A DNA stretch of 58,859 nt from Heterotrichella gracilis (Eukaryota > Sar > Xanthophyceae > Tribonematales > Xanthonemataceae). How positions within the stretch are numbered: position 1 is the first letter of the stretch; every line of letters starts with the position of its first letter. This document shows positions 325-58,859 of this stretch, one piece after another. The stretch covers positions 1 to 58,859 of the forward strand of contig JAULBX010025608.1 in NCBI GenBank assembly GCA_032358255.1. The letters run 5' to 3'. The notes below the pieces were generated by a model. The model saw only the letters and a program-made list of their open reading frames with translations, ran no database searches and was not told the origin of the DNA. A program made the translations under genes and the position numbers.

Positions 325-2356
325 CTGGTCTCCGTCCTCCTTCACCTCCTCCACATTCAGGTGCTCCATGTTGGTCACCACGCGAGCATGGGGGCCACGC
401 ATGTCTATGATGGTCTGCCGCACTGGCGCGGCCGCCGCTGCAGCTGCCGAGGCCCCACCACCCCCCTCCCCACCCCCCTCCATCAACTCCTCCGCGGTCT
501 TGTAGGTGCGGCGCTGGCGCTGCACGGTGTGCTTCTTCCTCCACATGGGGACGGGCCTGCCAGGCTGCGGAGGTGGTGGAATGGTACAAATGTCAGTGTG
601 GACGGATGCTGGAACAGCGCAGAAGTCATGGGATGCAATGTTTGTGGGTTTGCGGAATTGGTTGTGGGGTTGAACGTGTGCAGGTGAAATGTGAGCGTGG
701 GGTTTGCCTTGGCGCTGCTCGGTGTGCTTCTTCTTCCACATGGGGACGGGCCTGCCAGGCTGCGGTAGGGGGTGGAGTGGATGATGCATTGGCAAGCAAT
801 GGTGGTGCACTGATGGGCGATGGCGGAGGAACTGCAATGCATCACCTGCAACTCTATTCCTAACGCAAGACACGCAGAATACAAGGCATCGGGTGCAGCT
901 TCCCACCCACCTTCGCCTCCTCCTGTGGCACCCGAGTCTGCCATGGGCCACGAATGACATGCGCCTCCTCAAGCCATTAGAGATCAAGGGTTCAGGGTTT
1001 AGGGTTTGCATGCATCGCCTCACCCACCTTTGCCGTTGCCTCCTTGGAGATTATGGTCTAGGATTCAGGGTTCAGGGTTTCCAGCTCACCTTTGCCTTTG
1101 CTTCCTGCTGCGGCACCTTCTCCTCCTGCTGTGGCCCCACGTGGCTCACCTTGAAGTTGTTGAAGCCCAGGCCCATGTTGAGCGGCCGCTGCTTGACCTC
1201 GATGTTGGTGGCGATAGTATAGGTATTACCCTGCTTCTCCCTGCCAGGCCCATAATCACATTTAGCCCCATGCGGTCACCCACACGCCCGCCGTGGCGCC
1301 CGCCCAACAGCACTTCGGCCCACACAAGCGGCGCCGAGCAGTTTTGTCCCGTCTGAAATTTATTTTCACACCGTTTGTTGGTTGTGCACGCAATATGAGA
1401 TTTTGTTGGGCCAGGTCATCCTTGTGGCCCTGCACTAACCTGCCCAGCCCCGTGCCGAATTTGCACCACATTTTCAGGAGGACTTTAACATATCACATGT
1501 ATGGAGGACTTTAATATATCACGTGATATATTAAAGTCCTCCTGACATTTTCTTGAAGGTCTTGCAGTGATTACATTTCCAAGCGGATTTTGCATGATGT
1601 GAGGGTCCGTCACTGAAGCCCTGCGCGTACCTGCCCAGCCCGGTCTTGTACCCCATCTTCTCCATGATCCAGTACTAAATTACATTCACACCCGGTTGTT
1701 GCATTTTGCATGATCCGAGGGTCAGCCCGAGTGGCCTTGCGCTCACCTGCCCAGCCCCATGCTGGTCTTGTACCCCATCTTCTCCATGATCTTGCTGGCA
1801 ACGCCAGTGCTGTGCATTTCTAGCGCAGCCGGTGGCCCGGCGCCCGCCGCTGGGCGCTGATCCTGCTCCTTGCCGCCCTCTGCATCAGCCTGCATGATCC
1901 TGCGTGTGGGGCAGGGGCCGGGCGGTGTACCGGCTGTGTGTGCAGGGGAAGGGGAAACTTGGCTTGGGGCAAGATGTTGCCCAGAATGCGGCGCTTGTGT
2001 GTATTGGGGTTGGGTGGTGCGGGGGGAGGGGAAAAAGGGTTTTCCCAGTTGTGGGTTGGGAGTGACATGGGCGGGGTTGTGGATGGTGGTGTTGCTAGTG
2101 TAGTGGTGATAATGGTGTTAATGGTGGTGACTGTGCCTGGGCCCTGTTGGCTGTACACACCCATATGCATGCATATGCACACAAGCACCACCCTTTTTAT
2201 GCGTGCATACAGCCCATGATACAAAACCTCTCTATGAACCCCCCATACAGCCACACTGCCACCACCGGTGCCACCATGCGTTGTAACCACTGCATCCAAC
2301 ACCCACCTCTTCCCTAAAGCAGTCTGCGGAAGCTCCTCCTCCTCCTCCTCGTCCAT
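325..2356 (-). CDS. TFIP11/STIP (tuftelin-interacting protein 11) G-patch splicing factor, partial
   Basis: Exons on the minus strand: 2307..2356, 1747..1899, 1090..1240 and 325..564, with GT-AG borders and matching phases (198 codons seen). TFIP11/STIP proteins recruit and activate the DEAH helicase Prp43 for spliceosome disassembly in the nucleus. The visible parts, in order, are an acidic N-terminus with a GKR motif, a G-patch (STGVASKIMEKMGYKT then MGLGR), the plant-type IEVKQRPLNMGLGFNNFK segment, and the post-G-patch block with YKTAEEL and IIDMRGPHARVVTNMEHLN, close to the plant STIP consensus. The last exon ends in a clean donor, so the GCFC-like C-terminal domain lies left of the window. 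The TIP_N region is very short, so the ATG at 2356 may not be the true start. The 1090..1240 exon contains an internal AAG|GTGAGC that is read through, because the alternative intron would be only about 23 nt. The introns hold copies of three exon edges (separate entries). Confidence 0.82.
706..770 (-). repeat. Intronic copy of the start of the last visible TFIP11 exon
   Basis: This segment repeats, with a few differences, the start of the 325..564 exon including its acceptor (CAG|CCTGGCAGG) and the codons for GRPVPMWKKKHTEQRQ; the real exon reads GRPVPMWRKKHTVQRQ. It lies about 200 nt upstream on the coding strand and has no evident donor. It is probably a tandem duplicate of an acceptor-exon border and a possible cryptic exon. 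Confidence 0.75.
903..1055 (-). repeat. Two intronic copies of the end of TFIP11 exon 1090..1240
   Basis: Two degenerate repeats of the exon end (VPQQEAKAK followed by the donor) lie at about 903-970 (reading VPQEEAK, then GTGGGT) and about 1020-1050 (EATAK, then GTGGGT). Both keep a usable GT donor. They lie downstream of the real exon on the coding strand. Confidence 0.65.
1415..1700 (-). repeat. Two intronic copies of the end of the TFIP11 G-patch exon
   Basis: At 1625-1680 the minus strand again encodes IMEKMGYKTGLGR followed by a GT donor. At 1415-1465 a shorter copy encodes GTGLGR followed by GTTAGT. Both copy the end of the real exon 1747..1899 (IMEKMGYKTSMGLGR plus donor). Use of either would give an alternative G-patch end. 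The real exon is preferred because it alone carries the full STGVASK start and splices in phase to 1090..1240. Confidence 0.7.
1503..1542. repeat. Perfect 40-bp palindrome
   Basis: Two 20-base arms (GGAGGACTTTAATATATCAC and its exact reverse complement) meet with no spacer. A third, slightly diverged copy of the arm lies just left, at 1476-1496. The palindrome sits in the TFIP11 intron next to the exon-edge copies. It may be a cruciform-forming footprint of an inverted duplication or of a small non-autonomous element. Confidence 0.9.
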
Positions 2357-2787
2357 TGCTTCCTCGGGCTGAGCTGAGCCTAATTAATTAATATGGACAC
2401 ATGCATGCATGCCATTGCAAAGCCTGATGCTGCTGAGCCTAGCTCGTCCCCACCATGCTGTGTTGTTACCAAATGCGCATTATATAGTACTTGCTATGCT
2501 GTTGACGTATCACACAAAGTGCACAGGGTTGTGATGCGGAGACAACATGCGCATTTTTTTGTGGGCATTGGCTTTTACTGTGGTTATTGTGGGCATTGGC
2601 TTTTGAGTTGTAATGTATGGAATACTATTCATGTGCTGTGTGTCTACTCATGGCTGGTTATGCTCTGGGCCAGTCGTACTGTACATGGCAGATAAAATTG
2701 AACGAATTGTTCACCCATATTTTTACGGCAAGGGTGCAAGCTGCTCCATCCAGCCTCTCCTCCACCCTTCCCTCAATTTCCACCCAC

Positions 2788-4264: not shown

Positions 4265-6459
4265 TTACTCTTCCCTGTCAAAAACCCCATCCTCCTCGCT
4301 TTCATCATCATAATTCGAATCACTCAAAACTTCTGACTCATCCTGCAACATGGGTTCTGGCACCCCCCACAGCTCACCCGCCAACCCACACATTGCTCCC
4401 GGTGCCGCCAACCCCGCCAGCTTGGCAGCCAGCTCATCAAGTGGCCACCACAGCTCCTCATGGGCAGCGGCATCAAACGAATGCACCCACACGGCCCCTG
4501 TCATGCTATCCCCACCAGTGCTGACAACTGGCACACTGACGCGTGGCGGGCACCCCTCCAGCCTCTCCCACAGCCACAGCAGCGCATCCGCCACTGCCTG
4601 GCAATCACCCATGTGGCGGTAATGGCTGATGTAGCAGTAGGGGATGGGGATTTGGGGGCCCGGGGCCCGAGTGAAGGCCACTCCAACCTTCACCCAGGAT
4701 ACCTCCATCTCAAGGGAGATAGGAAGGTTCTCCTCATCCCGCCCCGGTGGGCCCTTGATGACCAGGCGCTGCAGCGCGGTGAGGGTGTGCATGTCTTTAG
4801 GAAGGCTGAGCGTGATTTGTACCTCACCATCATCGCCTTCAAAGTACGGAGAGTATCCCAAGCACAGCTTGGTGAGGCGTGTGAGCTTATGGATGCCGTA
4901 CCCCAGCTCTGGTTGGTAATCACTGTTACGATAAATGAACATTGATAGATCGAGCTCCACCAGGCCGGTCAACCTGGTAGTACCCTCAACCATCAGCTCC
5001 GGGGGCACGTCGTCATCATAATCAATGTCTTCGTCCAGGGACTGCCACACACGCAGCGCTGTGAGGCCAGACAGCTGGCTCAATGCCTCCACGTCACCGG
5101 TGTAGTCGCGCTGGAAGCCCTCCTATGCCAGGGTGGCGAGGGTGGGGAGGGTGGAGGGGAGGGCGTCCACCACGGGGAATGCCGGCTGAAAGATTGAATT
5201 GCAGCCGCTCCCAAAGGTGAGGTGGCAAAGGGAGGTGCTGGAGCTGATCAGCAGCGGGACTGGACCACGCTCGGATTGCAGAATGAACAGCAGCTCGCCG
5301 GGGTACACTTGCAGCACTTCCAGATGGGGGAAGCACGCGATGTCCTCCGGACAGGGGAAGTTCGTCAGGTGCAGGCGCTCCAGCTGTGTGAGGGCTTGCA
5401 GGTGGTTGGCCACATGTTGCAGGACTGTGTGGTCAGGTGCGTGCTCCACGCCCCATGTGTAGTTCATGATATAGCCAGCCAGCTCCAGGCTCCCCAGGGT
5501 CGTGAGCCCTGCCACGTGCTGCACTGCTGCATCCAGATGGCGCGCTGCCACACCCCATGGCCCACCACCCTCGTTGGCAACCCTGATGTGCACCTCAAGC
5601 TGCGTCGGGTGCACGCATGCCGGAAGGGCGGTTAGCGCATCGGGCGCCACGCTGCCGAGGCGCAGCCGGCGCAGCATGGAGCCGCAGGCGAGGAGGGCGG
5701 CCATGGGCCCGCTGTTGCCGATGAAGGCGGTGTACAGACCCATGTTGCCTGGGGGGTATGTGCACGGGAGGTACAGCCGCTGCACAGCAGGCATGCGCGG
5801 CAGAAGCCAGCGGATGAGGATGGCGTAGTGGTTGGCCGTTAGGTGTTGTAGGTCACAGTACGTCGAGATGGAGAAGGCCGCTTCTCCCGAGAGAGAGTCC
5901 TTGAGGTGCCGAACCACCCTACTCGGGTTGACTGCTTCTTGCGCCTGCGCATTCGGGGACATACAACCGGCAGCACATGGATGTGTTTAGGGTTTAGGGT
6001 TAGGGGTTTAGGGTCCCTGCAGACCTCAGCGGTGGCATCAAAAGGGGGCAATCATGCACAGCGCCTACACCTGGAAGGATTGCAAACAACAGGCGCACTG
6101 AGGGCCTTTGCTGGGGGGAACCTCTCTTACGCACCACCCACAAGTGAACAGGTTGCAACAACAGTTCAAACACACAGGAAGCCAAGTACTTCACATGAGA
6201 GTCACAGTACTCTGCACATGAGTCCAGTCAGTAGAAGGATGCACGCCTCTCCCTGAACTGCAGCCTTTAGTCTCACCTGCACGTCCTCCCACATGGATGA
6301 GGAGCCTAGGCTGAGGCGGTGCCAGGCCTTGCACACCAGAGGTACGGACCTGACTCTGTCCCTCAGTCCTGTCAGGCTTAATGTGTACTGGAGGACGTCC
6401 GGTGGCAGCGCCTCGATGGTGGTGGCCTCTAGGGCTCCCAACCGAGGTGGCTCAGCCAT
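4265..6459 (-). pseudogene. F-box/LRR protein with one in-frame TAG (copy A)
   Basis: Two exons: 6277..6459 encodes the F-box (LPPDVLQYTLSLTGLRDRV, SVPLVCKAWHRLSLG, ending WEDVQ) and 4265..5944 encodes leucine-rich repeats and the family C-terminus. The phase-0 intron is conserved in all full-length paralogs. The LRR part has segments such as LTQLERLHLTNF, LTGLVELDLS and LTRLTKLCLGYS. The C-terminal block has DALLWLWERLEGCPPRVS and DELAAKLAGLAAPGAMCGL, then an acidic tail. The frame is open for 620 codons except for one TAG at 5123-5125 (codon 335), where paralogs have a leucine codon (ATLA-stop-EGF against ATMALEGF). F-box proteins normally act as SCF ubiquitin-ligase substrate receptors. 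A single nonsense lesion suggests a recent pseudogene, or a truncated protein of 334 aa. Confidence 0.8.
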
Positions 6460-7594
6460 GGTTGGAGTGACCCAGTTGGAGTGACCTGTGCAAGGTGGGA
6501 GTAGGATGGTTTTGGGGCAACGTGACAGGGACGTCTACACCACGAGAAGGAGAAAGACCCACTTTTAATATATTGTACACGTAGACCTTGGTAGGCGTGC
6601 TGGGTGATAGGCGTGAAACAGTGAGGCATATGCATGCATGCGAGGGGTTTTTGGAACACTGCATAGCCGTGCAAGACACGCCTTTTTGCACAGATTCAAC
6701 ATAGGTAGGATATGGAGTGGAAACAAAAGCTGTTGTAGCGCCAGCAACATACCTGATACCTCCGACCCGCAGGGATGCTAGTGGCTCAGCCCCAAGTGTG
6801 GCACAGTGTCGTTACAGATCAGGCAGCAAGGCCGTGACTGAGGATCTGCAAGCACTTGGGGATTCTGGGCAGTAGAAGACGTGCAGTGTGCCAAATATTA
6901 CGCCTGCCGAACTACTTAAACGTATTTTGCTCATTAGCAGAGAATGGAATCAGGGTTTTATTTTGGCATAAATATTCAAAACAAAAATATTTTATTTCCT
7001 AAACAAAATGTCCCTGCAAAGAAAATGCACTGCTGCAGCTAAGACCAGTCAGGCTGGGAGACTGTGACACTGTCACAAGATAGATCATGACCCTGAGTCA
7101 GGTCTAGTCTGCCAAAATTTTGGTCTTTAAACAACTACATACCTGCAGCACTACTCAGCAGCCTGTGGCCCCCAACCTTATCCTCGTGCATTCCCTGTTT
7201 TTCGTTCTGCTTAACACTTACCAGTCTAAGACTGGTTGCTGACCATGGTTCTCACAAAACATGCTTTACACAGGTCATGTGACATTCAAGCTGCGCATTG
7301 CTAGGCAAAGCACACCCGTCTCAAGATGCTTTTGTTCAATTTTTGTGACAGTGTCCAAATAGTATAGCATTCTGCTACCGGTAAGTGCACATGTGCGAGG
7401 GATTGACAGGTCCCAGCTAACATACCCAAAAATCCTCCAATTCAGTAAATATATTACCCTAAGCATGGTACACCCAGTTTTATGTACAAGCCCTAGGCAG
7501 GTAAATGACTTATTGTGCACCACCCGCACAGATTAGCTGCTACAGGTGACTACGTGGGCCATGCCAATGCTACTAGCTCTATTCATTGCCACGG
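6460..7594. other. No gene recognised; intergenic between two F-box/LRR copies
   Basis: AT-richer spacer of about 1.1 kb between the start of copy A and the stop of copy B, both on the minus strand. It should hold the copy A promoter near 6460-6700 and the copy B 3' UTR; a TTACA at about 7265 could be a minus-strand TGTAA signal. No further exon was found. Confidence 0.5.
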
Positions 7595-9645
7595 TCAGCA
7601 CCATACGTCAATCCCCCACGGTGCACGCAAGCCACACATTGCACCCGGTCCCACCAACCTCATCAGCTTGGCAGCCAGCTCATCAGGAGGGCACCACAGC
7701 TCCTCGTGCGCCGTGGCGTCAAATGAGTGCACCCAATCGCCTTTTGCCACAGTGCCCCCATTGTAGCCCGCAGTCGGCGCACTGACGCGTGGTGGGCACC
7801 CCTCCAGCCGCTCCCACAGCCACAGCAGCGCATTCGCCGCGTCCTCCCAATCACCCATGGTGTGCTGTGCTTCAATGTAGCAGTGAGGGGTCCGGCAGTC
7901 GAGCCTGGGCTCAAACTCACATGGCTTGGACGTCCAGATTGCCCCCGCCGCCATGCCCGTGTGCCAGCCGCTCTCCCAAAGGAGCCGAGATCTGCCCTCA
8001 ATCTTGATAGAGAGCGCGGAGGTTTCATCGTGGAATTCACACTCCACCGGCTGGAGGCCATCCACCATGACCTGTGGACCCAAGGGCACCGCAGGGGGCG
8101 CCCTGGCCCACACCCCAGGCATATTGCCCTTGATGACCAAGCGCTGCAGGGCAGTCAGGGTGGTGATGCTCTGTGGAAGGATGAGCGTGGCCTGGGTCCT
8201 CACAACACCGGCAGCAAGATCGGTAAAGAAGCTTGAATACCCCAGGCAGAGCCTAGTCAGGCGAGTGAGCGCTTGGATGCCGCTGTCCAGCCTTGGGTGG
8301 GATGTCTGCCCTGGGTTTGGACTGCGTCCCGAGAGCTCCAGCTCCACCAAGCCTGTCAAGGCAGCCAAACCCACTGGCAGCCGCTCCGGCTGATATTGCT
8401 GCCAGATGCGCAGCGCCGCGAGGCCAGGCAGCTGGCTCATTGCAGGCAAGCTGGGTCCGTCTAACGGGTGGTTGGGCCTGAAACCCTCCAGTGCCATTGT
8501 GGCGAGGTTGGGGAGGGTGGACGGGAGGGCTTCCACCAAGGGAAGCTGCGTTGAGAAGTCGCAGTGCCACTCAGTGCCAAGGGTCAGGCTGCGAAGGGAG
8601 GTGCTGGAGCCGATGGGCAGCGGGCCTGGACGAAAGTGGTTCACCAGCTTATTTGCTTCATTCAACAGCTGGCGGAGGTACACTTGCAGAACCTTTAGGT
8701 GGGGAAAGCACTCGAGGTCAGCTGGAGCTGTCAGGTGCCTCAGGTGCAGGCGCTCCAGCTGGGTGAGGCTGCACAGCTGGTTGGATGCCCTTTGCAAATC
8801 TGAGGCCAGCTCCTCTTGCCAATTACCCCCCTGAAAATCCCTGTGCAAGTCCGGGACAGACAGCTTGAGGCGCCGCAGCTGCGTGAGTGCTGCCAAGTGG
8901 GCCAGGCCATTCTTAATCTGGCGCGTGAATACACTCCAGGGAGTGGCAGGCTTGTTGTCAACCTCTATGTGCACCTCCAGCTGCGCCAGGTGCCCGCACG
9001 CTGTCAGGGCAGCCAGGGCGTTGAATGCCACGCTGTCAAGGTGCAGCCAGCGCAGCATGGAGCCGCAGGTGAGGATGGAGGCGATGGGCCCGCTGTGGGC
9101 GCCGGTGGAAGTGGATTGGGAGGGGCAGTAAGCGCGGGAGCCATAGCTGCTGCACACTAGGCATCCGGGGCAGCAGCCAGCGGGCGAGGTGCCTGCAGTG
9201 GCTGAAATGCGAAGGGGCCCTCACCATATCTGTCACCTGTGAAAGTTGGGAATACAACTTTCAGCAAAAAGGTGGCAGTACCTTGCCGTGCAACAGGAAC
9301 CCCTTTCACTAAGGTGCCACCCTCGCGTCACGCACTGCCCACACTGAGCAGCGTGGCAACAACAGTACAATCACGCAGCCTGAACTATAACGATCTTAGC
9401 CTGCAGTTGCGCACAAGCCTGCAAGTTTCTCCCTCAACAGAAGGTTGTAACCAGCCTACCTTCACGTGGACCCACAGGTCTGAGGGGCCTAGGCTGAAGC
9501 GATGCCATGCCTTGCACACCAGAGGGACGGACCGCACCCTGTCCCCCAGTCCTGTCAGGCTCATAATGTACTGGAGGACGTCAGGTGGCAGCGCCTGGAT
9601 GGTGGTGGTGACCCCTGGGGCCTCTATCTTGGGTGCGTCAGCCAT
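7595..9645 (-). pseudogene. F-box/LRR protein with a one-base frameshift (copy B)
   Basis: Two exons: 9460..9645 encodes the F-box (LPPDVLQYIMSLTGLGDRV, SVPLVCKAWHRFSLGPS) and 7595..9236 the LRR region and C-terminus. Joined, they total 1828 nt, one base more than a multiple of three. The frame from the F-box runs through ARWLLPRMPSVQQLWLPR, but the conserved continuation (SGPIASILTCGSMLRWLHL, then about 480 residues of LRRs) is in the next frame; the shift falls at about 9128-9133, in a TT of GCGCTTACTG. The C-terminal part keeps DALLWLWERLEGCPPRVS and DELAAKLMRLVGPGAMCGL. One indel in an otherwise intact gene points to a young pseudogene. The long 3' reading frame could still be made from an internal start. 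A sequencing error is less likely because neighbouring genes have clean frames. Confidence 0.8.
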
Positions 9646-10493
9646 GGTGAACCTGCAGCAGCGCAGGCGGAGCAGGGTCTGCAGTTAATAGCTTCAATTG
9701 CTTACCGCCTACAGAAGCAATAAAATATTACTTAGACTTCCAGCTGGTAAAAAAAGTAGTCTACAGGCTTGCTAACAGTGGTAGGCTTCCGGAAGGCGTA
9801 CATACGGGCTCAAACGCATGCATGCATTTGACGAGGTCGAGTCCAGGCAAGCGCTGTGCAAGGCACGACCTGGCTCCCAAGGTTTACAGCAAGAGATACA
9901 CTTGGATAACCAAGGAAAGCCCAGTAGAGCAGCAGCAGCAGCAGCACCACCACCACCACCCACACCCCTACCCTACCCCTTACCTTTGGACAAGTCCGAT
10001 CCACAAGGATGCTGCGTCACCTGTCGCCCACAGCCGGGTTGAGCAATCAAAGGCAGCGCCACGCAGCTGCCTTCCAGCCTTGCTTGTGAACTCCGGGGAC
10101 TGACATCAGGTTGATAACCAACTTATTGCAGTCTCGAGAAGGAAGGCGGGAAACACAATTTGGCGGGAAACAACAAATGCATTTAAAAAATAAAATGCAA
10201 TCTATTATAATTTCCACAGCGGTGAACATATGATTAGGAGACGGGCTGGGAAGACAAGTGGCTGCTGGCCGACGCCGCGAAAACAGCAAGCGTTCATGGG
10301 CACATAAGCAGCCACTTCCTGCAGCCTAAAACTATCTTGTATACGAGCATCTGCTCAGCGAGCTATATTTCTATACGGCCTGTGCCAAGTCGCAATCAGG
10401 CGCTCAACCAGGTTTCCCTAGCTGCCCGGCAACTGCCCCTCCCATCCACGCCGTGTGGTGCTTTTGAAAACTAGGCCCAGCCACACTTTGGTT
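9646..10493. promoter_or_regulatory. Divergent promoter region between F-box/LRR copy B and eIF1
   Basis: The genes on either side start outward from this 850-bp spacer, so it must hold both promoters. A (CAG)n/(CAC)n microsatellite lies at about 9930-9965. AT-rich stretches lie at 10170-10215, and a TATA-like CTATATTTCTATA lies at about 10362-10374, about 120 nt before the eIF1 ATG. No precise start site can be assigned from sequence alone. Confidence 0.4.
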
Positions 10494-44881: not shown

Positions 44882-45110
44882 CACTGATGCGGCTACCCAT
44901 TAGGATCTACAAATGTACTTTAGATGTGGACACCCCAGCCAGGCATACTCGGTCTAGGGTCATGACAATATCCTTAGGTAGGGTAAACAGTGGAATGCTG
45001 ACTGTGCCTATTGGGTGGTTAACTTGTTGATAGAGGGTGGCAGTGGTTGACTGCCAGCGCATGCTAGCTGAGAGTGGTTGCGGACAGGGCTTGGTGCATA
45101 CAGGAGTAGT
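44390..45110 (+). repeat. Segmental duplication shared with 47850-48565
   Basis: Besides the coding fragment, about 200 nt of 3' flank are shared. Examples are CAGCCAGGCATAC, TCTAGGGTCATGACAATA, CCTTAGGTAGGGTA and GCTGACTGTGCCTA in both, and weaker similarity to GACTGAGAGTGGT/GCTGAGAGTGGTTG and TTGTGCATACAG/TTGGTGCATACAG. Both copies are in direct orientation about 3.46 kb apart. Confidence 0.8.
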
Positions 45111-46123
45111 TGTGTTTTTGTCTCGCTACCATATCTGCTACCAGTTTTCCTTCTCTTAATGGATTGGTTTCGTGACTGAACTTCTGTGGGATTTTTATAA
45201 GTGGTTGATAGGCTGCCTTGTTCACATCTTTTGGGGTGTCGCAACTGATTATGTTTTGAATAACTTTATCTGATAAATTGAGTATGTTGTCTGATTAAGA
45301 GTCATGGCAAGTTTAGGGGGACACTGGTTACCCTCAACTTCAGTGGATTCCCAAACCCAAAAGTAGCACAAAAGTAACAGTGTACCTGCAGTAGTGGTAC
45401 TTGCCAACGTTTGCACCAACTGCAGTGAGTGGCGATGGTCCGAAAAAGCCTTGGTAAAGTTTGTCCGACCGTGGTTTGGAATCATTCCCTGTGGATAAGG
45501 CAGGAACGTCGTTCTTGCCAAGGTGCAATAATAATTTGCACCTATGACAGGCACCACCTACTGTGGCAGCACTTTGTCTGCTGTTTGTTGAACACATCCT
45601 CTGGCCAGCTAGGGTTTCGTGCTCAACTTCAGGGTTTCTGTGGATATTTTTAACCAAATTCGTTATCGTCTGCGGACTGCTGCAGAAGTCTGCAGGAGGT
45701 GTCTCACGTCTCCTGCTGGAGGTTGGATGAAACTGTAGCGCCACTGCTTTTGATATGTAACCCCTATACAGCGCTGTCTTGGGCTGGGCAACACGGTTGC
45801 ATCCCTGTTGGGTCTGACGCCTCGTACAGGTATGGTCCTGACGCTAGTGAGCTGGTCTTTACACTCTATATGCTACTTATTGAATAGTTAATGGAAAACA
45901 GGGCGTGTCTTGCACGGCACTGCAGTTTCCGTGCCTGGCCCCCAACAGGTGCATGCACGCATTCTGCATCACACTGCACTGGACGTCTTGGCCTTTCCCC
46001 AGCACGTCTACCACAGTATTACGGTCTGAGTTGGTTGTAGTTCGAAGGTTGCTCTGTACCGTGGTGTACGACTGCGTCTCGTTCAGATTGCTCCAAACCC
46101 ACCTACCCACCCTGCAGATCAGC
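45111..46123. other. No gene recognised; upstream of F-box/LRR copy D
   Basis: AT-richer spacer containing the putative copy D promoter and leader. The 3' end before the ATG has a CTGCAGATCAGC context. No additional exon was seen. Confidence 0.45.
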
Positions 46124-48285
46124 ATGGCTGAGCCACCCCAACTGGAGGCCCATGGGGCCAACACCACCACCCAGTCTCTGCCGCCTGACGTCCTGCAGAC
46201 CATACTGGGCCTCACTGGACTGGGTGACAGGGTCCGGTCCGTCCCTCTGGTGTGCAAGGCCTGGCACCGCCTCAGCCTAGGCCCCTCAGCCATGTGGGAG
46301 GACGTGCAGGTGAGGCTGGATGGGCTCTCAGAGTCGTCATACTACTTGTGCATGTGTACAATTTGGCCCCGTGCTCTATGTAGTGGATCTTACAAGTTGT
46401 GTTTGTAGTCTTGTTGGGAATGGTTACTTGTGGGCTGTGCATGGGTAGTTAGACCTCTGAGGGTCTTCATAAGCACTGGCACCCTAAACCATAAACCCTG
46501 CACCCATGTGCTCAGTTGTGGGCTGTGCAATGGGAGTGGGACCCTTCAGGGTGTCCACAGGCACCGCCCAGCACCTGCACCCTAAACCCTAAACCCTGCA
46601 CCCATGTGCTCACCGTCACAATGTTGCTGACCGTCATATCTCCCCCTGTGTAGGTGCCAGATGTGTTCCCGGTGGTGCGGCCTCCAAGGTCGCGTACAGG
46701 CACACCTATTCAGGCAAGCCCCTCCATCCAGCTGTCCCGCCCACCAGCCATCTACTATGCCCTCCTCACCCGCTGGCTGCTGCCATATGCCTTGCGTGCA
46801 GCACCTGGGCCTCCCGCGCATATGCCCACCAGCCGGACAGCCCTCCCAATCCCCTCCCATCAACACGCACAGCGGGTCCATCACCTCCATCCTCACCTGC
46901 GGCTCCATGCTGCGCCGGCTGCACCTCGGCAGTGCGGCGCCCGACGCGCTGGCTGCCCTGGCACCGCGCGTGCACCTGACGCAGCTGGAGGTGCACATCG
47001 AGGTTGACAACGAGCACCCTGTGACATGGGAGGAATCCTTGCCACAGATTCAGGCTGGCCTGGCGCACATTGCCCCGCTCATGCAGCTGCGGCGCCTCAA
47101 GCTGTCTGTACCCGACTTCATGGATTTGGTGCGAATGCAGCTGCACAAGGAGTGGGTGGAAGATCTGCAAAGGGCATCCAACCAGCTGTGCAGCCTCACC
47201 CAGCTCCAGCTGGAGCGCCTGTACCTGAGGCACCTGCCAGCTCCAGATGACCTGGCGTGCTTCCCCCGCCTGGACGCGCTTCAGTTGTACCCTGGTGACA
47301 TGCTGTGTCAGATTGAATGGGCAGTAGATGAGCGTCGTGCAATAGATTTGCCTATCGCCCCCAGCAGCTCCCTTCGCCACCTGACATTTGGCGGTGGGTT
47401 CGTCATCGTCTCTGGACTGCCGCCACCCTTTGTGGACGCCCTCCCCTCCACCCTGCCCAACCTCGCCACCCTGGCGCTGGACGGGTTCAAGCCCTTCTCT
47501 ACCGGCGCGGCCAGCTTGGTGGCATTGAGCGGGCTGTCGGGGCTCACGGCATTGCGGGTGGTGCAAATGTTGAGCGATCGTAGCCAACCTCCTCCGCCGC
47601 TACTTCCCGGGGGGGTGGATGCCTTGACAGGCCTGGTGGAGCTGGAGCTCTCGGTGTGGAACAGCGGCACATACAGGGTGTACAACCCAGAGCTTGGGAG
47701 CGGCATCCACGGCCTTGCACAGCTCACATCGCTGTGTTTGGAGTAGATTTGGAGTACCCGCCAGATTATGTGACTTTTGAAAATCTCGAGAGTCAGCCAG
47801 TAAGGAGTCCAGCCACGTTCACCCTTCCAGCAAGCATCACTTCCCTCACTGGGCTGCAGCGCCTGGTGGTCAGGAGCTCTCAGGAGCAGCGGACGGGAAC
47901 CCATGCCCATACATATCTTGGCGAGGCGTATCCGCTTACTATCCAAATGAAGTGCTCTGAGGTGGAGGTGGGAGCATCTTTTCCCGAGGCCCAGGATGCC
48001 AATCGCGACAACAATCATGAGGTCTGCTGCTCCATCTATGCACGGGCCGACGTGGGTGATTGGCAGCCCGTGGCGGATGCACTGCTGTGGCTGTGGGAGC
48101 GGCTGGAGGGGTGCCCACCACGCGTCATGCTGAATGTGGAAGCTGCCTGTGATGGGGAACCCGCGGTGGAGTCTTTGTGGGCGCACTCATTTGACGCTAG
48201 TGCCGATGGGGAGTTATGGTGTTCTGCTGATGAGCTGGCTGCCAAGCTGGCGGGGCTGGCAGCATCGGAGGCCATGCGCGGCTAG
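46124..48285 (+). pseudogene. F-box/LRR protein with two frame breaks (copy D)
   Basis: Exon 46124..46309 encodes an intact F-box (LPPDVLQTILGLTGLGDRV, SVPLVCKAWHRLSLGPS, ending WEDVQ). A phase-0 intron follows, and the second exon starts at 46654 after TGTGTAG. The frame runs to TRWLLP, then breaks at about 46787 (two bases fewer than copy B: CTGCCATATGCC against CTGCCCCGGATGCC). The conserved LRR region (SITSILTCGSMLRRLHLGSA, LQLERLYLRHL, LTGLVELELS) is in the second frame up to a TAG at 47744. The C-terminus (LTGLQRLVVRSS, DALLWLWERLEGCPPRV, ELAAKLAGLAASEAM) is back in the first frame. The whole second exon keeps a length divisible by three, so the breaks compensate in length, but the middle is out of frame. 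It is probably a pseudogene. Confidence 0.78.
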
Positions 48286-49343: not shown

Positions 49344-52300
49344 TCACACACCCTGACCCCCCTGCTGACTCAACAATCGCTCCAGCAGCAGTCTCTGCTG
49401 ACCAGGGTCGACCACCTCCTTCAAAGGCACCGGCGAGGCTGCGATGGCTGCCGCGATGTCGTCCTCCCCTCTATCCTGATCGCCGGCACCTGTTCCTCCC
49501 CTGGGGCTGCCGGTGTCGGGGTCGATACCCTCGATTAGGGCCTGGCGGGCGGCTGAGAACGCCATCACGTCTTCCTGCAAGGGGTTGTGGGAGAAGGTGC
49601 ATGTGAGCGTGGCAGCCCATGTGTGCGGACTTGGGGGGATTTAGATATTGAATAGGGTAGGCCACTACAAATGTTCAGTGAACCTTAGGGTGACTGGATG
49701 TGAAGGTTAGGTGCCGCTTACACAGGCCTCAACACCTCTTTAGAAGCACATTGCACAATCACCAAGCACTGCATACCTCCGCTCTCCCCCCCCTCCCCGC
49801 CCACCTCCACCAGTGCCGCATACCACCAAACACTGCATCGCCCACTTCCACCACCACCACCACACTCTCCCCACCCACCTCCACCGTATCGCACACCGCC
49901 ATGCGATGAATCACCACCAACCGAGTCTGCCCCAGGCGGTGACACCTGGCAGCTGCCTGCTGCTCTATGGCTGGATCCATGGCAGGCTCGAGAAGGAACA
50001 CGTGTGAGGCGGAAACCAGGGTGAGGCCCGCTGCTCCCTTGTGTAGGGGGAGCAGGAGGGTGCGGCAGGAGGGGGAGTCAAAGGTGCGCAGCGCCTTTTG
50101 GACCTCCTGGCGGTGGGGGTGAGAGGTCTGGCTTCAGTGAAAATAGTTTGCTGTGTGTGGTATGAATGCGGGGTTATGGAGTTCCTGAGTGTGTGTGGAC
50201 GGGGTTCCGGAAAACTGCCAAGCTGGAATGCACATGTTCGGTCGCTGATGGATGCGTAACTTACAAAGGCAGAAACCCTGCGCCATGGCCCACCAAATCC
50301 TGCCTCTTCCCCTCCAGAACCCTCCCCATTTTCACCCCACCTTCTTTCCCCCCTTGAGCAGCGCATGCTCCACCCGGTTGACCGTCAGCGCCTTGCTGAT
50401 GAGGTCAAGGGCAGCGGGGTACTGGCTGAACACAAGGCTCTTGACGTCTGATTCCTGGGACTGGAGGTGGGTGAGTGGTGTACTTTAGGGTTTAGGTTTC
50501 TTGATGATGGTGCGTCACATACTATAAAACAGCCATGGCACACACAGCCAGGTCACAAACAATTCAGCAGTACAGCCATGTCACACCCAACCCGGCAGGA
50601 CAGGCAGATGACAAGTTGAAAAGTGGCAAATCTGGTGCAAGGGAGCCCAACATGCCCAAAATGCACATCACTATACTCTGTCACCTTCAGCTGTAGCAGC
50701 TTCCCCACCAGCCCCTCGATCTTGGTCATCCACTGCCCCACCACCCCTCCGGACCCACCACCACCACCACCACCGTCGCCGCCGCCGCCACCCGGCCTTG
50801 CCCCCACCGCCACCCTGAATCCCTGCCTGGCCCCTGTCTTGGTGCGGCACAGGGGGCAGCGCGGGGGGTGCTCCGCCATTACCATGTGGGAGCACTTGAG
50901 GCAGATATAGTGGCCGCAGTGGAGCACGATAAGTTCACCCTGCAGGGGAGGGGAGAGCTGGTCAGGGAAGGGCAGGATACAGCACGTGGGAAGGCATTAC
51001 ATGGAGGTTACAGCACAATGGCATTGATATTGGAGTCTCCCCACTGTGAGGTCACCCTAGAGGAGAGGGCACGTGATCAAGGGAGGAGAGTACAGCAAAT
51101 GGGAAGGCTACTTCCAGCTGTCGCCCTAGGGTTTGGGCAGTCAAGGTGGAGGTGGTATCTGTAGGGTTTCCTTACCTCCAGCTCATCGTAGCACACAGGG
51201 CATGTGGTGGCCTGACCCTCATCAGGGTCTTCACCAGGATTACGCCTGCTGCTGGGGCCTGCTCCACCGCCACCTGGCGCGCTACTGGGCCCAGCCACAT
51301 CAGCACCAGACAGAGAGATGCCATTGGCTAGGGCATTGCCAGGTGGCGCACCGCCGTTGGATGGAATGTCGCCAATGGATGGGTGTAGCGTGCTGCCATT
51401 GGACGGGGCGCTGCCACTGGCTGGGACAATGCCGGATGGCGCATCCACGTCAGCCATCGCTACATCCCCATTGGTTGGAACGCTGTCAGGTGGCGTGCTG
51501 CCATTGGCTGGGGCGCTGCCATTACTGGCTGGGACAGTACCAGGTGGGTCAATCATATCAGTCATCACAATGTCGCCATTGGCTGAGTCTTCGCCAACCG
51601 GAACCGCACCAACCACCCCCACCTCCCCGCCCCCAATCGAACCCGGGACCTCCGCGAGGGGTGCGGCTCCCTCCCCTCCAGATCGGCGCGCCACCCCCAC
51701 TTGCTGCCCCTTGAGGTCATTGACCTGGTTCTGCAGGAATCGCTTCTTGGATTGGAGGGCCAACGCAGCCTTGGTGAGGGCATCCACCTGGCACCAGCAA
51801 AACCCTGTCAGAAACCCTAGCACAAGCCTCGGCAAACATCCTGGTGAAAATCGTGATGTACAACAATGGAATCTGTAGCACAAGCCCTAGAAAAGCATGG
51901 CGGAACTGCCCCAAATTGGCCCCACTGTGCACCACCACGCAGCTACCAAAGCGTGCATGGCCATGTCTCACAACACCACGAACCAGCAAAACCATGTCCA
52001 ACCCTAGCAAATTCCAGCAGGACCCATTGATTTCTGATATGGCAAACACCCTCACAAAACACCACACCATCACCCACCTTGCGCCGAATCTCCCCCACAG
52101 ATCTGCTCCCATTACCGCTCTGCCCCTCCTCCTCACCCACCCCCTCTTGGCCACCAGGCAATGACACCCCAGTGGCGCCCTGCCATTGAATCCCCCTGGC
52201 TGCAGCCATGACCTCCTGCTCTATTTTCTCCTGCGCAAGGGGGAGAATGCCTTAGAAGGGGTCAGGCCAGGGTTAACAAAGCCAGACTGAGCCGGCAGTG

Positions 52301-55300
52301 GGAAAACCCAAATCTTCCATGGCAGCAATCCGATGAAACGTCGACCCACCTATGCCAGCAACGCAGGTCAAGTTGAGCTTGTGCTGAGGGAGCGTGACAA
52401 AATTGCAGAAGGAACTGACACGCCCGGAAGTATTTCCCACAGGTGCGCACGCATGCCACGTGGCGCTCCCTTACACCCGCAAACCCTATACCCAAACCCA
52501 GAACCTTTCCCTGCAGCGGGAACCCTAAACCCTAACCCTGCCCCTACCTTTTCGTGCGTGCGCAGCTCCTCCTGCAGCTCCGCCACATGGCGGTCCTTCA
52601 GCACACGGACCAGATCAAGCCGCGCACGCACATTGGCCACACAGGCGCGCACACACGCCAAGGGGAGCAAGCGCAGGGGGGGGAACTCGTCTGCGCCCGC
52701 CGCCATCTTTTTCAGTTGCTTCTCGCTTTCCCGGATGGCACGGCGCACGGCCCGGATGAGCTGTACAGGAGGTGAAGGGTGTGGTTAGGGTTTTGCTGGG
52801 GCGTGGCTAGGGTTTGGTAGGGTTTGGGGAGAAGCGCTTGCTATTTTGCTAACACAACAGCACAAATATCTCGTGACAACACGCACCATTTCCCTGTGCT
52901 CCGGCATGTGGTGCAGGTAGGCAGCCACCAGGGGCAGCACACCACCAGCCCACACAGCAGCAGCAGCAGCCCCTTCCCCACCAGCCACTGTGGGGGCCCC
53001 ATCCACCACAACCTCCCCACTTGGCGCATCCCCCTTGGGGCCACTTGGCGGATTGCCATTGGAGATGGGAATCACACCCATGCCAGTTGGCGCATCGACA
53101 TTGGATGGGCCAGGACCTGCAACAGGGCCAGGGATTGAACTCGCACCAACGCCACTGGGCATGATGCCACTGGCTGAGGTACCAGCACCAGACCCACTAC
53201 CAGCCCCACCCTCCTCCTCCCCCTGCGCCGACTGAATCAACATCTGTTGCAGCGCGTAGTCGGGGTTGTTGGTGTCCAGGGGGGGAGGGGGAGGGGGCGG
53301 GGAGGGGACCGAGGCAGGCACAGCCACCTCGCCTGCAAGGGGGGTACAGGGGAGGAAGGAAGTTAGTCTCAGGTATATCATCATACAGGCCCTGGATAGT
53401 AGCAGTCAAGCTTGCAACTTGCAGGCAAACCCTAAACCCTAAACCCTACAGTGGTTTGACAGCATTCGACACACACTGGAAACACCAACGGTCACAACTC
53501 CCCAACCCACTCCGAATGGCACAGTCATCTGGAGTGAGATTGCCTATAGACATCCTAGGGTTCTTAAGGTTCCTAGGGTTTTCTACGCTCTCACCTGTGG
53601 CCACCCTCAGCGCCTGCCTCAGCCTTGCGATCACCCCCGGCTGCACCGCCACACCCACCACCGCCTCCACTGCCTGGCGCGCCCGGGACAGCACCTTGTC
53701 CCAGGCGGAAAGCACAATCCCCACATCCTCGCCCATCAGCACCTGGGGATCAGGGTTTGGTGGTCAGGGACGGGGTTTTGTGTCCCATCAAAACTCAGGA
53801 CTTTTTAAGTCTACCCAGGAGACGCTTTCTGCCCAGCCATATACGAATTACGACACGTAACTCTAATACCGATTTGGATAGTGCAATCTTGGGCTGCGCA
53901 TTGGGAGACATTCGAAGTATGATCCGTCATACTGCACACAACCAACCGGCACGGCCAATAAAGCTCCTTTCCCAGGACTCCCTGCCTTTCCTGCACCCAC
54001 CCCTTGCCGCAGGCTCCTCCCCAGTTTCTCCCTCTCCTGCGCCTCCCTGAACTCCACTGCCAGCTGCTCCAGCCACTCAGGGGCAGGCACCAGCTTGGAC
54101 AGCCACTCAGGTGCTGCCACCTCAGCATTGGGGTGTGTGGGGATGGCTGGCCAACCCTTGGCGAGGGTTTCTTCCCAGGAGCTAACAATCTGGGATGGGG
54201 AAATGGGAGGGTATCGACACGAGGCCGGGCGTGGGAGGGGAAAGGGGGGCAATGTGCATGATGCTGCATGTATGCAGCGACTCCAGGCAGTGGTTTCATG
54301 TGTCCTATGGCCTGCACAAGGCTTGGACATTCAACAGTGCATGCCCACGTGCGAACACTCACACTTGACCCCACTCAACCACCCTTGAAAGCCTAATTCA
54401 TAAGCATTCACAACCCCATTTGCACATCCATGCCCCCACCACACACCACGCACACACTCACAATTACCCACCCAAACATCCACAGCTACTAACCTACCCG
54501 CACCACATCCACAAACCCCAAACCTAAACCCTCCCCAAACCACACATGCATGCCCTTCTGCTCCTATCAAACACACATACCCGTACGCCTACCCCAATCA
54601 CCACAAACCACCCCCCACAAATAACACCACCGCCCCTGCGCAACCCCCCATCCCCCACCCACCCCACCCCCACCTTGCCCCGCAGCTCCTCCACCCTCCG
54701 CTCCACCTCCCCCCTCCTGCTGGCAGCCACAGCCAGAGCACCATCCACAGCACCCCGCATCTCCCCCACCTTGGCCTCCATGCTCTTGCGATACCGATCC
54801 GCCTCTAGGGTTTGGCCGAGGGTCTCGCACAGGGCAGCCAGCTGGTACTCGGTGTTCACCTGGGGTTGTAGTGTTTTGGTAAGGGTTTTTGACAGGGCTG
54901 GAAAGGGTCACAGGGTTTCCGGCTAGGGTCTGATGCACCGCAGCCAACTGGTACTCTGTGCTGGCCTGGGGTTGCTGTTTAGGGTTTAGGGTTTGGGATT
55001 TGTGGTCGATTTTTTGTAAATTCCGTCAACGGCGCTCCCCACCTGAACCAGCCGCCACGCCCTGATGCTGCCATCAGCGGCACTGATGTCCAGCTTGGAA
55101 AACCCTTCGTTAGGGTCTAAGGCATCCAGGCCGTGCTCCCCAACCTCATAAGCGCGCTTCAACAGCTCAAGGGCCTCCCCCCGTTTCTGATCGACGGTGG
55201 TTTCCCCCCTGGGGGTGCGGCTGCCGGTGGTGGGGGATGGGGAGGTGGGCATGGGGGTAAAGGTGGTGCCTGTGAGGTGGGGGGTGGGTATGTGGGTGGT

Positions 55301-58300
55301 AAGGTGGTGGGATGGCATTGCAAGTCTTGTACGCACCACCGATGCACAAGTCGCTTGCATTGACACAAAAGGCAATCACTTGGATCAATATTCATACAGC
55401 ATACATTACCATCTCACAGTTGCACAGACACTACAGTACCTACCATCAATACCCACACATACTTTCTTTCCCCCCCCGTTTCTTTCAAACACAACTTACC
55501 TTCCTGTCCCTCCCCTCCCTCCCCTCTGGCCCGCTTCCCCCGGCCCCGCCCCCGCCCCCCACTCCCCACCCCACCCCTTGCCCCCTGCTCCTCCGCAGCT
55601 GCCAGCAGGGCAGCCGCTAGGGTATTCAGCTCGGCGCATAGGGTTCTCTCTGCACCCTGCAGCTCCCGCTGTGCCCCATCCCTCAGGCGGGACATGATGT
55701 CATACATGGACAGGGCACCACCCTGCGCAGGTTGAGGGCTTCAGGGTTTGAGCTTCAGGGAAAGGGATCAAGGATCACGGTTATCACATCAGCGCATAGG
55801 GTTCTCTCAGCGCCGCTGCGCATAAACCCTGAACACCTAAAACCTAAACACCCTCACCGACTGCAGCTGCACCTCGGTAGACAGCTGCTGCCAGTATCCC
55901 CAAACCCTCCCCAAACCCTTCCCCAAACCCTCGCCAACTACAGCTTGCAGCTTCGTAGACAGCTGCTGCCAGTCGCCCCTGACCCTGCAAAACCCTACCC
56001 CAAACCCTATCCCAAAACCCTTCCCCGTCCCCTCACCGACTGCAGCTGCAGCTCCGTAGACAGCTGCTGCCAGTAGCGTGTGATCTGTGGGTGCACGCAC
56101 GCCAGCCGCAGCTGACCAACCTCCTCCCATGCGGCCTGGGCCAGCGCTGCCTCCCGGTTCCGCCACTGGAACTCGCCATGACCATTGGGGGTGGGGGAAG
56201 CTGCCTGGAAAGGAACAAAAGTACACGTTTTGTATGTAGTGGAAGTAGATTCTCCCTTCAAAATTTAATAGAGAATTAGTTAATGCGTCCCGGTGTGTGT
56301 GTGCGGTGGAGGCGGCGTGGGGAGGGAGAATCCTCCCTGATCTGCTGGCTTTCCTGATCCGCTACACCCAACATGCCATTTAAACTGCCAATCCAACACT
56401 GCCAATCCAATACACTGCCAATCCAATCCAACACCCCCAATCCAACACCCAATTAAGCCATGTTTAACCCAATCCAGCCTGATCCCACCCGATCCAACCC
56501 ACCTGCGCCTGCTCGTGCGCGTTCAGCTCGTCCCTAGCCTTCCTGATCTGCTGCACCACGTGGTTGTAGAAGTGGCGCTCCCCTGGGGTGAACTTGAGCC
56601 ACACCTCCCGAATGGAGCGGGGGGGCAGCTCCAGCCCTGCGCTGAGTTTGGAGTTCCGCCACGCCAAGGGGGTGATGACGCGGGAGAGGAGGGCGCGGCC
56701 GGCGGGGTCGCCTGCGGCAGGGGATGGGAAGGGTGCTTAGCAAGGTATCAAAAAAAATATATATACATACATATAGGAGAATTGTCCAGCCATGGATACC
56801 AATAGGACGGAGTCAGGAGGAACGGTAGTTTTTACTGCCGGGCTTTGCACCCACCCCCACACACCTCCAGGTAGCAAGCAGAGCGGCCTCCTCATGCGGT
56901 GCATCAAGCACACACACACGGTAATCGTGTCCTAGGTTTGCATATGGCCAAGAAGCCTTGATGTACCCCGCACCATCAACCTCACCGGCCCTTGATGCCA
57001 TGGCCATTACACGCCATGGTCATCGCACCAGCCAAAGCCACAGGCCCATTTGAAATGCTCATTGCACCAGTCCTTGATGTTTGAGTTAAAAAACCAAGTA
57101 TCAACTTTCCAGCGGTTTCCAGCGCGCTGGTAGGGTTCATGATTAGGGTTTCCCAAGGTGCTGGCAAGTCCATGATATTGAGTCCATCTAACCTCCGCAG
57201 CACCGCCACCACCCCTCTCCAATGACAACCTCCCACCCGCACCCGCACAATCCCCCCCCAGCCGCAACCCCCGCCCCTCACCACCCTCCACCACAACCAC
57301 CCACCTCTCCCCATCGGCCTCACCACCTCCACCAGCCTGAAACCCTAAACGCTGAACCCTGAAACCCTAAACCCTAAACTGATCCCCACCTTCTTTCATC
57401 GGCCCCAGCACCTCGTTCTCCCACGCCCTCTTCAGCGCAAATGGCTTGTGTCCCAAAACCCTCAGCAAGTTCTGGAAGTCGCCCAGGCCATCCTTGCAGA
57501 TGGGGGTACCCGTCACACACCACCTGCACAAGGGGGATGTGGATGGTTAATTATGATGTCTACTGTGCACAGCCTTGCGGCTTCTGACACGATTTGCTGG
57601 GTCCCGGTTGTAAAATGTTGCAAGTATGTGCAGCGCAAGTGGCTTGTGTACAAAAACCCTCAGCAGGTTGAGGTCGTCCAGGCCATCCTTGCAGATGGAG
57701 GTACCCGTCACGCACCACCTGCACACAACAGGAGGCGAGGAAGCGGAAATTAAGACGCCACTTGTGCGCACAGTGTGTGGGTTTGGCCAGGGTTTGGCTG
57801 GGCCCCGGTGGTAAACATGCGGCAACCAACCTCACCCACATAGCACTCCACCATCCACCGTTGAGTGGCACTCAACCTGCCTGCCTTGGATGCCACCGCC
57901 CCCCCTCTCACCCCCACCCCACCTCTAGCTCCTGCCATCACCAATCTGTGCAATCGAAATCAACCCACCAGTTGCCCCCGTCCACCTCATCCCCCCACAC
58001 ACAATACGTGCGCGGCATTCTCACCACCCCCATCCCCATCCCCATCCCCACCACCACCACCCCCAGCACCCACCGGTGGCTGGCGCTTATCCTGCCCGCC
58101 ATGGACGCCACCGCCCCCCACCCCACCCCCAGCTCCTGCGCCTCATCCATCACCAGCCGGTGCCACGTCAGCGCCAGCAGTGGCGACAGGGGGATGGGGT
58201 AGCGCTTCGTGTGGCGCAGGCGGGTAGAGGGGGTGGCGGGTGGGGGGGAGTAGTTCACCTCCTGTTGGAGCACCTGTGGGACCAAGAGTAGGATTTTAAA

Positions 58301-58859
58301 AGGGTTTTGAATGCGAGTATGGTGTAGGATTTTGGTATAGGGTCTCCTGGAGTTGGGAGGGTATGGGGTAGCGCTTGGTGTGGCGCAGGCGGGTGGCGGC
58401 GGTGGCATGCTGGGGGGAGTAGTTCACCTCCTGTTGAAGGACCTGTGGGGCCGAGAGCTGGGATTCAGAAGGGATAGAAATGTGGAAAATCACTTTGGTG
58501 GCACTCACAAAGGTTCTCCCCATCAGGACCTGAGGATACTTTTCTCACAAGGGTTTCCGGCCCCACCTGGTATGTTGTGAGCACGATGTCGTACCCCTGC
58601 AGCTCTGCAGCTGTCATGTCAGCTTCTGTTGCGGTGTCGGTGCCGGGAGGCGGGGTATTGGCGCCGCTGCATGGGGTCTGGAGAAGCTGCCACTCCGATG
58701 TGTCCTGCAGGGGGGAATAGATGGTTATAAGCTACTAAGGGTTATGGTTAGGGTGTAGGGGTAGGAGAAGCTGCCACTCAGTGGTGTCCTTTGGGGGAAG
58801 GGGTCGGGGGGGGGGGGGGGGTAGCAATCGTCCAGGGCCGGGGAAATGATGTCAAGGGG
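49344..58859 (-). CDS. SHPRH: SHPRH-like SNF2 helicase/RING E3 ubiquitin ligase, partial (N-terminus outside)
   Basis: Eighteen phased exons: 58567..58704, 58074..58273, 57390..57523, 56503..56711, 56037..56204, 55500..55722, 55043..55269, 54674..54859, 54001..54189, 53595..53742, 52887..53332, 52548..52760, 52078..52230, 51176..51787, 50685..50939, 50341..50460, 49879..50106, 49344..49574. SHPRH ligases polyubiquitinate PCNA and remodel chromatin or stalled forks. Seen in order: GYDIVLTTYQVLQQEV, Walker B DEAQ, RWCVTGTPI, long helical linker, RING finger (CPVCYDELEGELIVLHCGHY, ICLKC, CPLC) between the helicase lobes as in SHPRH, then SLVFSQYPAALDLI, LLLPLHKGAAGLTLVSASHV and HRLGQTRLVVIHRM. 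Walker A and upstream domains are beyond the right edge. Exons 51176..51787 and 52887..53332 encode Gly/Ala/Pro/Asn-rich low-complexity inserts. Several introns carry exon-edge copies. Confidence 0.93.
51280..51570 (-). repeat. Coding low-complexity repeats in the SHPRH-like exon before the RING
   Basis: The exon encodes diverged repeats of the type (S/A)NGS-APxNG, DAPSGIVPASGSAPSNGS and IGDIPSNGGAPPGNALANGI, from DNA repeats around CCATTGG and GGCGCTGCCA. A related insert (VDAPTGMGVIPISNGNPPSG, GDAPSGEVVV) is encoded at about 53000-53130 in another exon. They are probably disordered linkers. Confidence 0.75.
54930..54975 (-). repeat. Intronic copy of the start of SHPRH exon 54674..54859
   Basis: CAGCCAACTGGTACTCTGTG then CTGGCCTGGGGTTG repeats the exon start and acceptor (CAGCCAGCTGGTACTCGGTG, TTCACCTGGGGTTG). 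Confidence 0.8.
55855..55980 (-). repeat. Two intronic copies of the end of SHPRH exon 56037..56204
   Basis: ACCGACTGCAGCTGCACCTC, GGTAGACAGCTGCTGCCAGT (about 55856-55895) and GCCAACTACAGCTTGCAGCT, TCGTAGACAGCTGCTGCCAG (about 55933-55973) repeat the exon end with its donor, which encodes YWQQLSTELQLQS. The copies are about 80-100 nt apart. Confidence 0.85.
57640..57725 (-). repeat. Intronic copy of the start of SHPRH exon 57390..57523
   Basis: ACAAAAACCCTCAGCAGGTT, GTCCAGGCCATCCTTGCAGA, TGGAGGTACCCGTCACGCAC, CACCTGCACA repeats the real exon start and acceptor, including codons for CVTGTPICKDGL (here CVTGTSICKDGL). It is about 85% identical and lies about 190 nt upstream on the coding strand. 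Confidence 0.88.
57870..57955 (-). repeat. Intronic copy of the end of SHPRH exon 58074..58273
   Basis: CCTGCCTGCCTTGGATGCCA, CCGCCCCCCC, ACCCCACC and AGCTCCTGCCATCACCA copies the exon end encoding DEAQELGVGWGAVASMAGRI. The copy has lost the CACCGGTGGC donor context (GCACTCAACC). Confidence 0.7.
58335..58445 (-). repeat. Intronic copy of the start of SHPRH exon 58074..58273
   Basis: GGTATGGGGTAGCGCTTGGT, GTGGCGCAGGCGGGTGGCGG and GGGGGGAGTAGTTCACCTCC, TGTTGAAGGACCTG repeat the exon start and acceptor with few changes (codons for VLQQEVNYSP and TRLRHTKRYPIP). It lies about 170 nt upstream on the coding strand. Confidence 0.9.

Follow-up and report, generated by a model that had tools for sequence, protein, structure and literature searches.

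Some introns of the alga Heterotrichella gracilis (Xanthophyceae) contain decayed copies of the edges of the exons next to them, splice site included. We analysed these exon-edge copies in a stretch of 58,859 nt (GenBank contig JAULBX010025608.1 of assembly GCA_032358255.1; one entire contig, here called the window and, where contigs are compared, C310) and in a sample of other stretches of the same genome, the assembly of which comprises 68.5 Mb in 903 contigs, with TTTAGGG arrays at contig ends. The copies are real and not the product of chance; they occur genome-wide, yet they are patchy and are rarer outside the window. We observe the copies and their splice sites, filler sequence between the copies, a link to telomere-like runs and one duplication that is missing from a paralogue, and from these we infer that the duplications probably arose when staggered breaks were repaired by fill-in and end joining, in many cases with telomere-like DNA as filler.

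Exon-edge copies in the window and in the genome

Exons and introns were assigned with a simple model that was self-trained on the window and 20 other 10 kb stretches; it converged on MAG/GTRNGT donors and TGCAG/G acceptors and predicted 425 introns with a median length of 265 nt and exon pieces with a median of 153 nt. Five further stretches joined the sample later, among them L029, which was picked for its paralogue of a gene in the window. All gene models are predictions of this gene finder of our own, in which some copies are mistaken for exons, and the intergenic annotation is rough and may include untranslated regions.

When 70 nt exon edges were aligned to their own adjacent intron, 16 of the 206 edges of the window and 9 of the 644 of the 20 other stretches matched with a score of at least 36. 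Dinucleotide-shuffled introns and other introns each gave a mean of 0.2 matches over five rounds for the window and 0 for the sample, and the reverse-complemented own introns gave none in either; the edge counts are approximate because some edges belong to copies mistaken for exons. For exons of at least 160 nt, the window gave matches with 9 of 85 edges against 2 of 85 interior pieces, and the sample with 8 of 310 edges against 1 of 310 interior pieces. A preliminary description of the window had reported exon-edge copies in adjacent introns, to be doubted if the similarity were at the level of shuffled introns or equally dense away from the borders; the edge and interior tests place it above both levels.

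Self-alignment, masked for telomere-like and low-complexity DNA, gave 22 clusters of local direct duplication in the window (a minisatellite at 31999–32731 was excluded): 16 lie across a predicted exon–intron border, three join exon and noncoding DNA, two are noncoding only and one lies within an exon. Over 309 kb, including the 22 of the window, there are 62 clusters, of which 42 are border-spanning, eight exon plus noncoding, eight noncoding only and four exon only. The lag over the same 309 kb has a median of 151 nt (quartiles 100–186 nt), which agrees with the unit spacing of 80–190 nt given earlier, and repeat pairs at a lag below 400 nt are mostly direct (70 versus five inverted in 259 kb; the minisatellite gives five of the 70). 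The density that had been called remarkable holds for the window, at 3.7 clusters per 10 kb, but other places are poorer and uneven: 24 other 10 kb stretches hold 33 clusters in all and nine of the 24 hold none; L030 has six clusters per 10 kb and L029 seven. The clusters cover 12.5% of the intron DNA in the window and only 4.9% in the sample, so that the wording that introns are built from such copies, although right about their presence, is overstated. Similarly, the copies described as tandem are indeed local but are mostly separated by unrelated filler and are not strictly tandem.

Borders and splice sites

In many copies the homology extends past the border into the intron tail or the donor. 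Among 28 scored pairs, not all from separate clusters, 22 have the same splice dinucleotide (AG or GT) in both copies, in keeping with the earlier claim that a splice site is part of what is copied.

If the same clusters were placed at random, 41.6% would lie at borders. With the exon-only clusters left out, 42 of 58 lie at borders, against a random expectation of 46% (p = 6e-5), which rises to 56% on the assumption that noncoding pairs can be recognised for only half the time (p = 0.012). Of the 62 clusters one is intergenic, compared with an expected 10.7%. Because random placement already predicts 46–56%, much of the border preference comes from short exons, from purifying selection and from the longer persistence of pairs that include exon sequence; what is left over is modest. 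Intron length does not differ between copy-bearing introns and those without copy and motif (p = 0.39), a comparison that is uninformative because the gene finder splits introns at pseudo-exons. Introns with a telomere-like motif and no detected copy have a median length of 320 nt, versus 233 nt in introns with neither.

Filler and telomere-like sequence

Among the 31 young pairs (identity of at least 88%, spacer of at least 15 nt), 24 have a spacer with no likeness to either outer flank, made up of 12 of 17 telomere-like spacers and 12 of 14 others; in a simulation, a co-duplicated spacer at 20% divergence would be detected in 95% of cases. Because these 24 spacers match neither flank, a young duplication usually consists of two copies with filler between them.

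Telomere 7-mers are found in 10 of 12 fillers of 35–50 nt (control 10%) and in 11 of 19 fillers of 80–130 nt (control 17%); the single filler longer than 250 nt has none (control 24%). Direct duplications surround 31 of 96 intronic telomere-like runs of at least 18 nt, versus 4.7 of 99 random intron sites. They flank 21 of 169 single telomere-like 7–9-mers (control 8.0 of 172) and 60 of 354 non-exonic telomere-like runs of all kinds (control 22.3 of 362), neighbouring runs within one array being counted separately, and no inverted duplications were found around telomere-like runs. Across 26 loci, including the window and L029, duplication density follows telomere-motif density with a rho of 0.85.

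Telomere-like 8-mers number 1246 per Mb in introns, 201 in predicted intergenic DNA and 122 in predicted exons. In the same order, runs of at least 14 nt amount to 0.75, 0.134 and 0.047 per kb, and all telomere-like runs to 2.01, 1.01 and 0.47 per kb. Within the introns of the window and of L009–L033, the first tenth of the intron is the commonest position of telomere-like motifs (225 of 1091), with further peaks in the third tenth (180) and in the last fifth (251).

Comparison of paralogues

A paralogue of the first window gene lies on contig C215 (stretch L029), and to judge from their alignment the two genes share older duplications, one at an acceptor and one at a donor. The C215 donor border has one further copy of 63 nt, which takes in the donor and the 49 nt of exon before it; it is followed by a 43 nt telomere-like filler with AGGGTTTAGGG-like sequence and then by the next copy. 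The paralogue in the window has neither this extra copy nor the filler. Because the C215 copies are 90% identical, while the paralogues are 73–79% identical over longer matches, a gain in C215 appears more likely than a loss in the window. For the helicase and fasciclin-type genes of the window (see below) no usable paralogue was found, and paralogue searches with L030 and L029 gave partial matches only.

Origin of the duplications

The duplications are probably scars left by the repair of staggered breaks through fill-in and end joining. A staggered double-strand break would arise in a gene body; once its two overhangs had been filled in, joining of the ends would give a short direct duplication, with copies mostly of 35–150 nt, and filler, often telomere-like, would be inserted between the copies during repair. 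In a border-spanning duplication splicing would stay at the outer copy (the upstream donor or the downstream acceptor), so that the filler and the inner copy would become intron; the splice site would thereby be doubled, the inner copy would decay and the scars would survive where splicing hides them. Protein homology points to use of the outer site in two genes only. The model of an NTM1-like methyltransferase matches PF05891 over 219 of 250 residues and its spliced protein matches across the junction; the core of a plastid-type DExH RNA helicase, typed without the copied residues, aligns without gaps to PDB entry 4xgt through the Walker A junction. Repair at the borders had been offered as an alternative in the preliminary description, and it is upheld by the direct duplications and by the filler in most of the young pairs.

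The filler may be supplied by telomerase, by another telomere activity or by the copying of existing telomere-like runs. CST with Pol α also fills in telomere ends. It is conceivable, and we put it forward tentatively, that telomere-maintenance enzymes acting at staggered breaks in transcribed genes are a standing source of intron sequence and doubled splice sites; extension with TTTAGGG would then be followed by fill-in by CST and Pol α-primase and by end joining, which by analogy would bring the fill-in pathway and telomeric inserts together in one pathway. If true, this would explain why the longer telomere-like runs are several-fold denser in introns than between genes.

Several results weigh against these proposals. 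Telomere 7-mers occur in none of five fillers of 15–35 nt (control 7%), in 3 of 11 of 50–80 nt (control 12%) and in 3 of 9 of 130–250 nt (control 31%). The 5.6-fold density of runs of at least 14 nt in introns over intergenic DNA is unexplained by random breakage alone; transcription-linked breakage would fit the excess, as measured against a rough intergenic annotation. A telomerase-type polarity of the runs is not seen, the predicted end being the nearer one in 10 of 22 (p = 0.83), and polarity is likewise mixed in three fillers that bear both run orientations. The purity of the filler does not fall with the age of the copies (rho 0.17, n = 24), two non-telomeric fillers that were searched as to their source have no other match in the genome, and only one event is polarised by an outgroup. 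Seven of the 31 young spacers are similar to an outer flank, which is what simple tandem duplication would be expected to give.

These seven spacers also favour another origin, in which stretches with telomere-like repeats already in place underwent ordinary tandem duplication or unequal exchange; the spacer would then be co-duplicated intron DNA. The same can be said of the helicase and fasciclin arrays, in which the exon edge and the telomere-like part repeat together, and of the older donor duplication of C310 and C215, in which related sequence follows both copies. The 24 young spacers that match neither flank, and the joint appearance of copy and filler in the single paralogue comparison, speak against such an origin, which we regard as somewhat unlikely. 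Selection that maintains decoy splice sites or regulatory pseudo-exons in the introns, another reading proposed earlier, might be seen in the intronic copy at 710–780, which is still 93% identical to its exon though the flanking intron has diverged from the paralogue. About 65% retention of the splice dinucleotides is expected from the identity elsewhere in the copies, so that the 22 of 28 scored pairs show no clear excess attributable to selection on the copied sites; with eight of the 62 clusters in plain noncoding DNA, such selection is quite improbable as the explanation and the decoy reading is set aside.

Intron gain by tandem duplication across an AG/GT junction, a model in which a new intron arises from a local duplication, was the reading first suggested for the copies. 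Its signature would be an intron start that copies the start of the downstream exon or an intron end that copies the end of the upstream exon, and at a threshold of 22 identical bases out of 40 anchored, ungapped bases these were found in 0 and 1 of 308 introns, with 0–1 in permuted controls. Some junctions do read AG/GT (for example the helicase Walker A junction), and this test is less sensitive than the border test because it is ungapped, but a signature at the permuted level although border copies are common makes intron gain highly improbable here. Both cases involve local duplication of splice-site sequence; in the present one, however, the whole border is copied and the gain signature is missing. 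Rather than introns that have just arisen, the copies look like duplications across a pre-existing border, the splice site of which is thereby doubled. Introner elements are insertions that affect introns genome-wide and are present as many near-identical copies at unrelated loci; introns are affected genome-wide here as well, but the two fillers searched match only themselves in the genome. The target duplications of transposons are far shorter than the duplications described here.

Relation to known systems

Small tandem duplications have been attributed to staggered-break fill-in by Vaughn and Bennetzen (2014), as cited in PMC7407515. Schimmel et al. (2021; PMC8355091) describe their formation at breaks with 3′ overhangs by CST-guided Pol α-primase fill-in, the duplication in mouse and human cells being largely dependent on CST, Pol α-primase and end joining. 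The likeness lies in local direct copies beside the original, as in the 70 direct versus five inverted pairs found here, but in our case most young copies have filler between them, in many cases of telomere-like sequence, and the survivors lie mostly on exon–intron borders. In 24 of the 31 young spaced pairs filler unlike the flanks takes the place of head-to-tail joining; some clusters overlap in tandem.

For telomeric insertions in the horse, PMC7215372 reports a direct duplication at 3 of 66 loci, ascribed to staggered breaks, two further complex loci with duplication, and in-register bases in 31 of 40 junctions. Mammalian interstitial telomeric sequences at breaks, as described there, thus resemble our case, in which the filler is often telomere-like, in having an insert that is sometimes flanked by a direct duplication, but the 3 of 66 duplicated loci in the horse contrast with 31 of 96 longer intronic runs here, and the telomerase-type polarity of the runs is missing here. 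Plant telo boxes (Gaspin et al., 2010; PMC3022908) are short AAACCCTA motifs scattered across genes, as are ours, and telomerase at free 3′ ends was proposed as their origin; in Arabidopsis they number 151 per Mb within introns and 680 within 5′ untranslated regions, whereas we count 1246 per Mb in introns (counting rules may differ) and find flanking duplications.

The ingredients are thus known, but among the open-licence papers listed none describes the combination in algae in its title or at the start of its abstract, and none of them the combination together with its density. Changes in intron length and the origin of cryptic splice sites and pseudo-exons have so far mostly been argued indirectly. 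Here, older and fresher scars of one process would lie at predicted borders, where their age, size, filler and effect on splicing can be read, and if the telomere link holds it would join telomere maintenance at breaks with intron evolution in one organism.

Features of the window

The features below are on the minus strand unless stated otherwise, with percentages giving the identity of the copies. The acceptor edge (515–584) of exon 325–564 has an intronic copy at 710–780 (515–780; 93%), with a non-telomeric filler of 125 nt; the copy retains CCGCAG and the pair is common to the C215 paralogue. Conversion or use as an alternative acceptor is a possible source of this identity, given the age of the copy. 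Exon 1747–1899 has its donor edge (1703–1791) copied at 1587–1669 (1587–1791; 80%); this is the border at which the C215 paralogue bears its further copy with telomere-like filler. In a fasciclin-type gene, acceptor edge 14176–14230 and copy 14267–14321 (14176–14321; 89%) enclose a telomere-like filler (14231–14266) that is unlike the outer flanks, and the donor edge of exon 19665–19860 is followed by downstream copies and telomere-like sequence (19389–19711; 77–78%).

On the plus strand, the NTM1-like methyltransferase gene has donor edge 23337–23407, a telomere-like filler and an intronic copy at 23495–23565 (23337–23565; 76%). Also on this strand are the acceptor edge (28300–28374) of exon 28294–28483, with an upstream intronic copy at 28002–28077 (28002–28374; 82%), and part of a last exon with a copy beyond the predicted stop (28412–28547; 88%). 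Back on the minus strand, weak gene models cover copies at predicted borders (30830–31090; 89%) and three copies with CCCTAAA-like runs (31177–31465; 87–97%). The acceptor edge of exon 33328–33501 is copied at 33613–33699, with telomere-like motifs in the filler (33425–33699; 75%); the donor edge of exon 34978–35092 is copied at 34820–34870 (34820–35022; 80%), the acceptor edge of exon 35328–35583 has an overlapping tandem copy (35471–35674; 73%) and that of exon 37216–37359 has a copy at 37417–37450 (37336–37450; 91%), the filler of which (37370–37416) is telomere-like and unlike the outer flanks.

The helicase gene carries the Walker A edge (exon 39939–40094) with three upstream copies at a period of ∼126 nt (39997–40463), the third copy being partial, together with AAACCCT runs. 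Its acceptor edge of exon 40548–40692 is separated by a telomere-like filler (40705–40751) from a copy at 40752–40811 (40647–40811; 87%). In its splice sites, introns and matches to known proteins the genome resembles that of a green alga; among the best 120 of 8000 matches of the helicase, the named algal ones are from Chlorella sorokiniana and Auxenochlorella, at 50–51% identity. An SNF2/RING-type gene has four such features: the acceptor edge of exon 54674–54859 with a copy at 54912–54994 (54807–54994; 74%), the donor edge of exon 56037–56204 with two copies (55934–55976 and 55857–55896) that lie downstream in sense and come with CCCTAAA-like runs (55857–56077; 88–95%), a long duplication across predicted exon and intron pieces (57433–57825; 76%), and exon part 58190–58295 with a copy at 58359–58465 and a telomere-like motif between them (58190–58465; 86–94%). 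Off the borders, self-alignment gave a 64 bp triplicate (22866–23058) and a duplication of 69% identity (25837–26111), both in noncoding DNA and without assigned strand, and a minus-strand duplication within a single exon with a lag that is a multiple of three (51385–51585; 76%).

A guess that the second gene of model win 4 encodes a porin found no support in Pfam, where there was no match at E 0.001. The regions 4265–10229 and 44355–48285 hold mutually related leucine-rich-repeat (F-box-like) genes, which lie on opposite strands and have long exons and few edge copies. The minisatellite at 31999–32731 differs from the exon-edge copies in being built of alternating 82 and 71 bp units (a 153 bp composite) in ∼4 copies with 93% matches. 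Three similar exon-sized units with flanking splice sites in L016 (7504–8266) are apparently a whole-exon tandem duplication and not edge copies. A short repeat at 1497–1548 of the window matches dozens of other contigs on both strands and is apparently of a ATGCATGC-type palindromic kind, ATGCATGC being the third commonest 8-mer of the sample.

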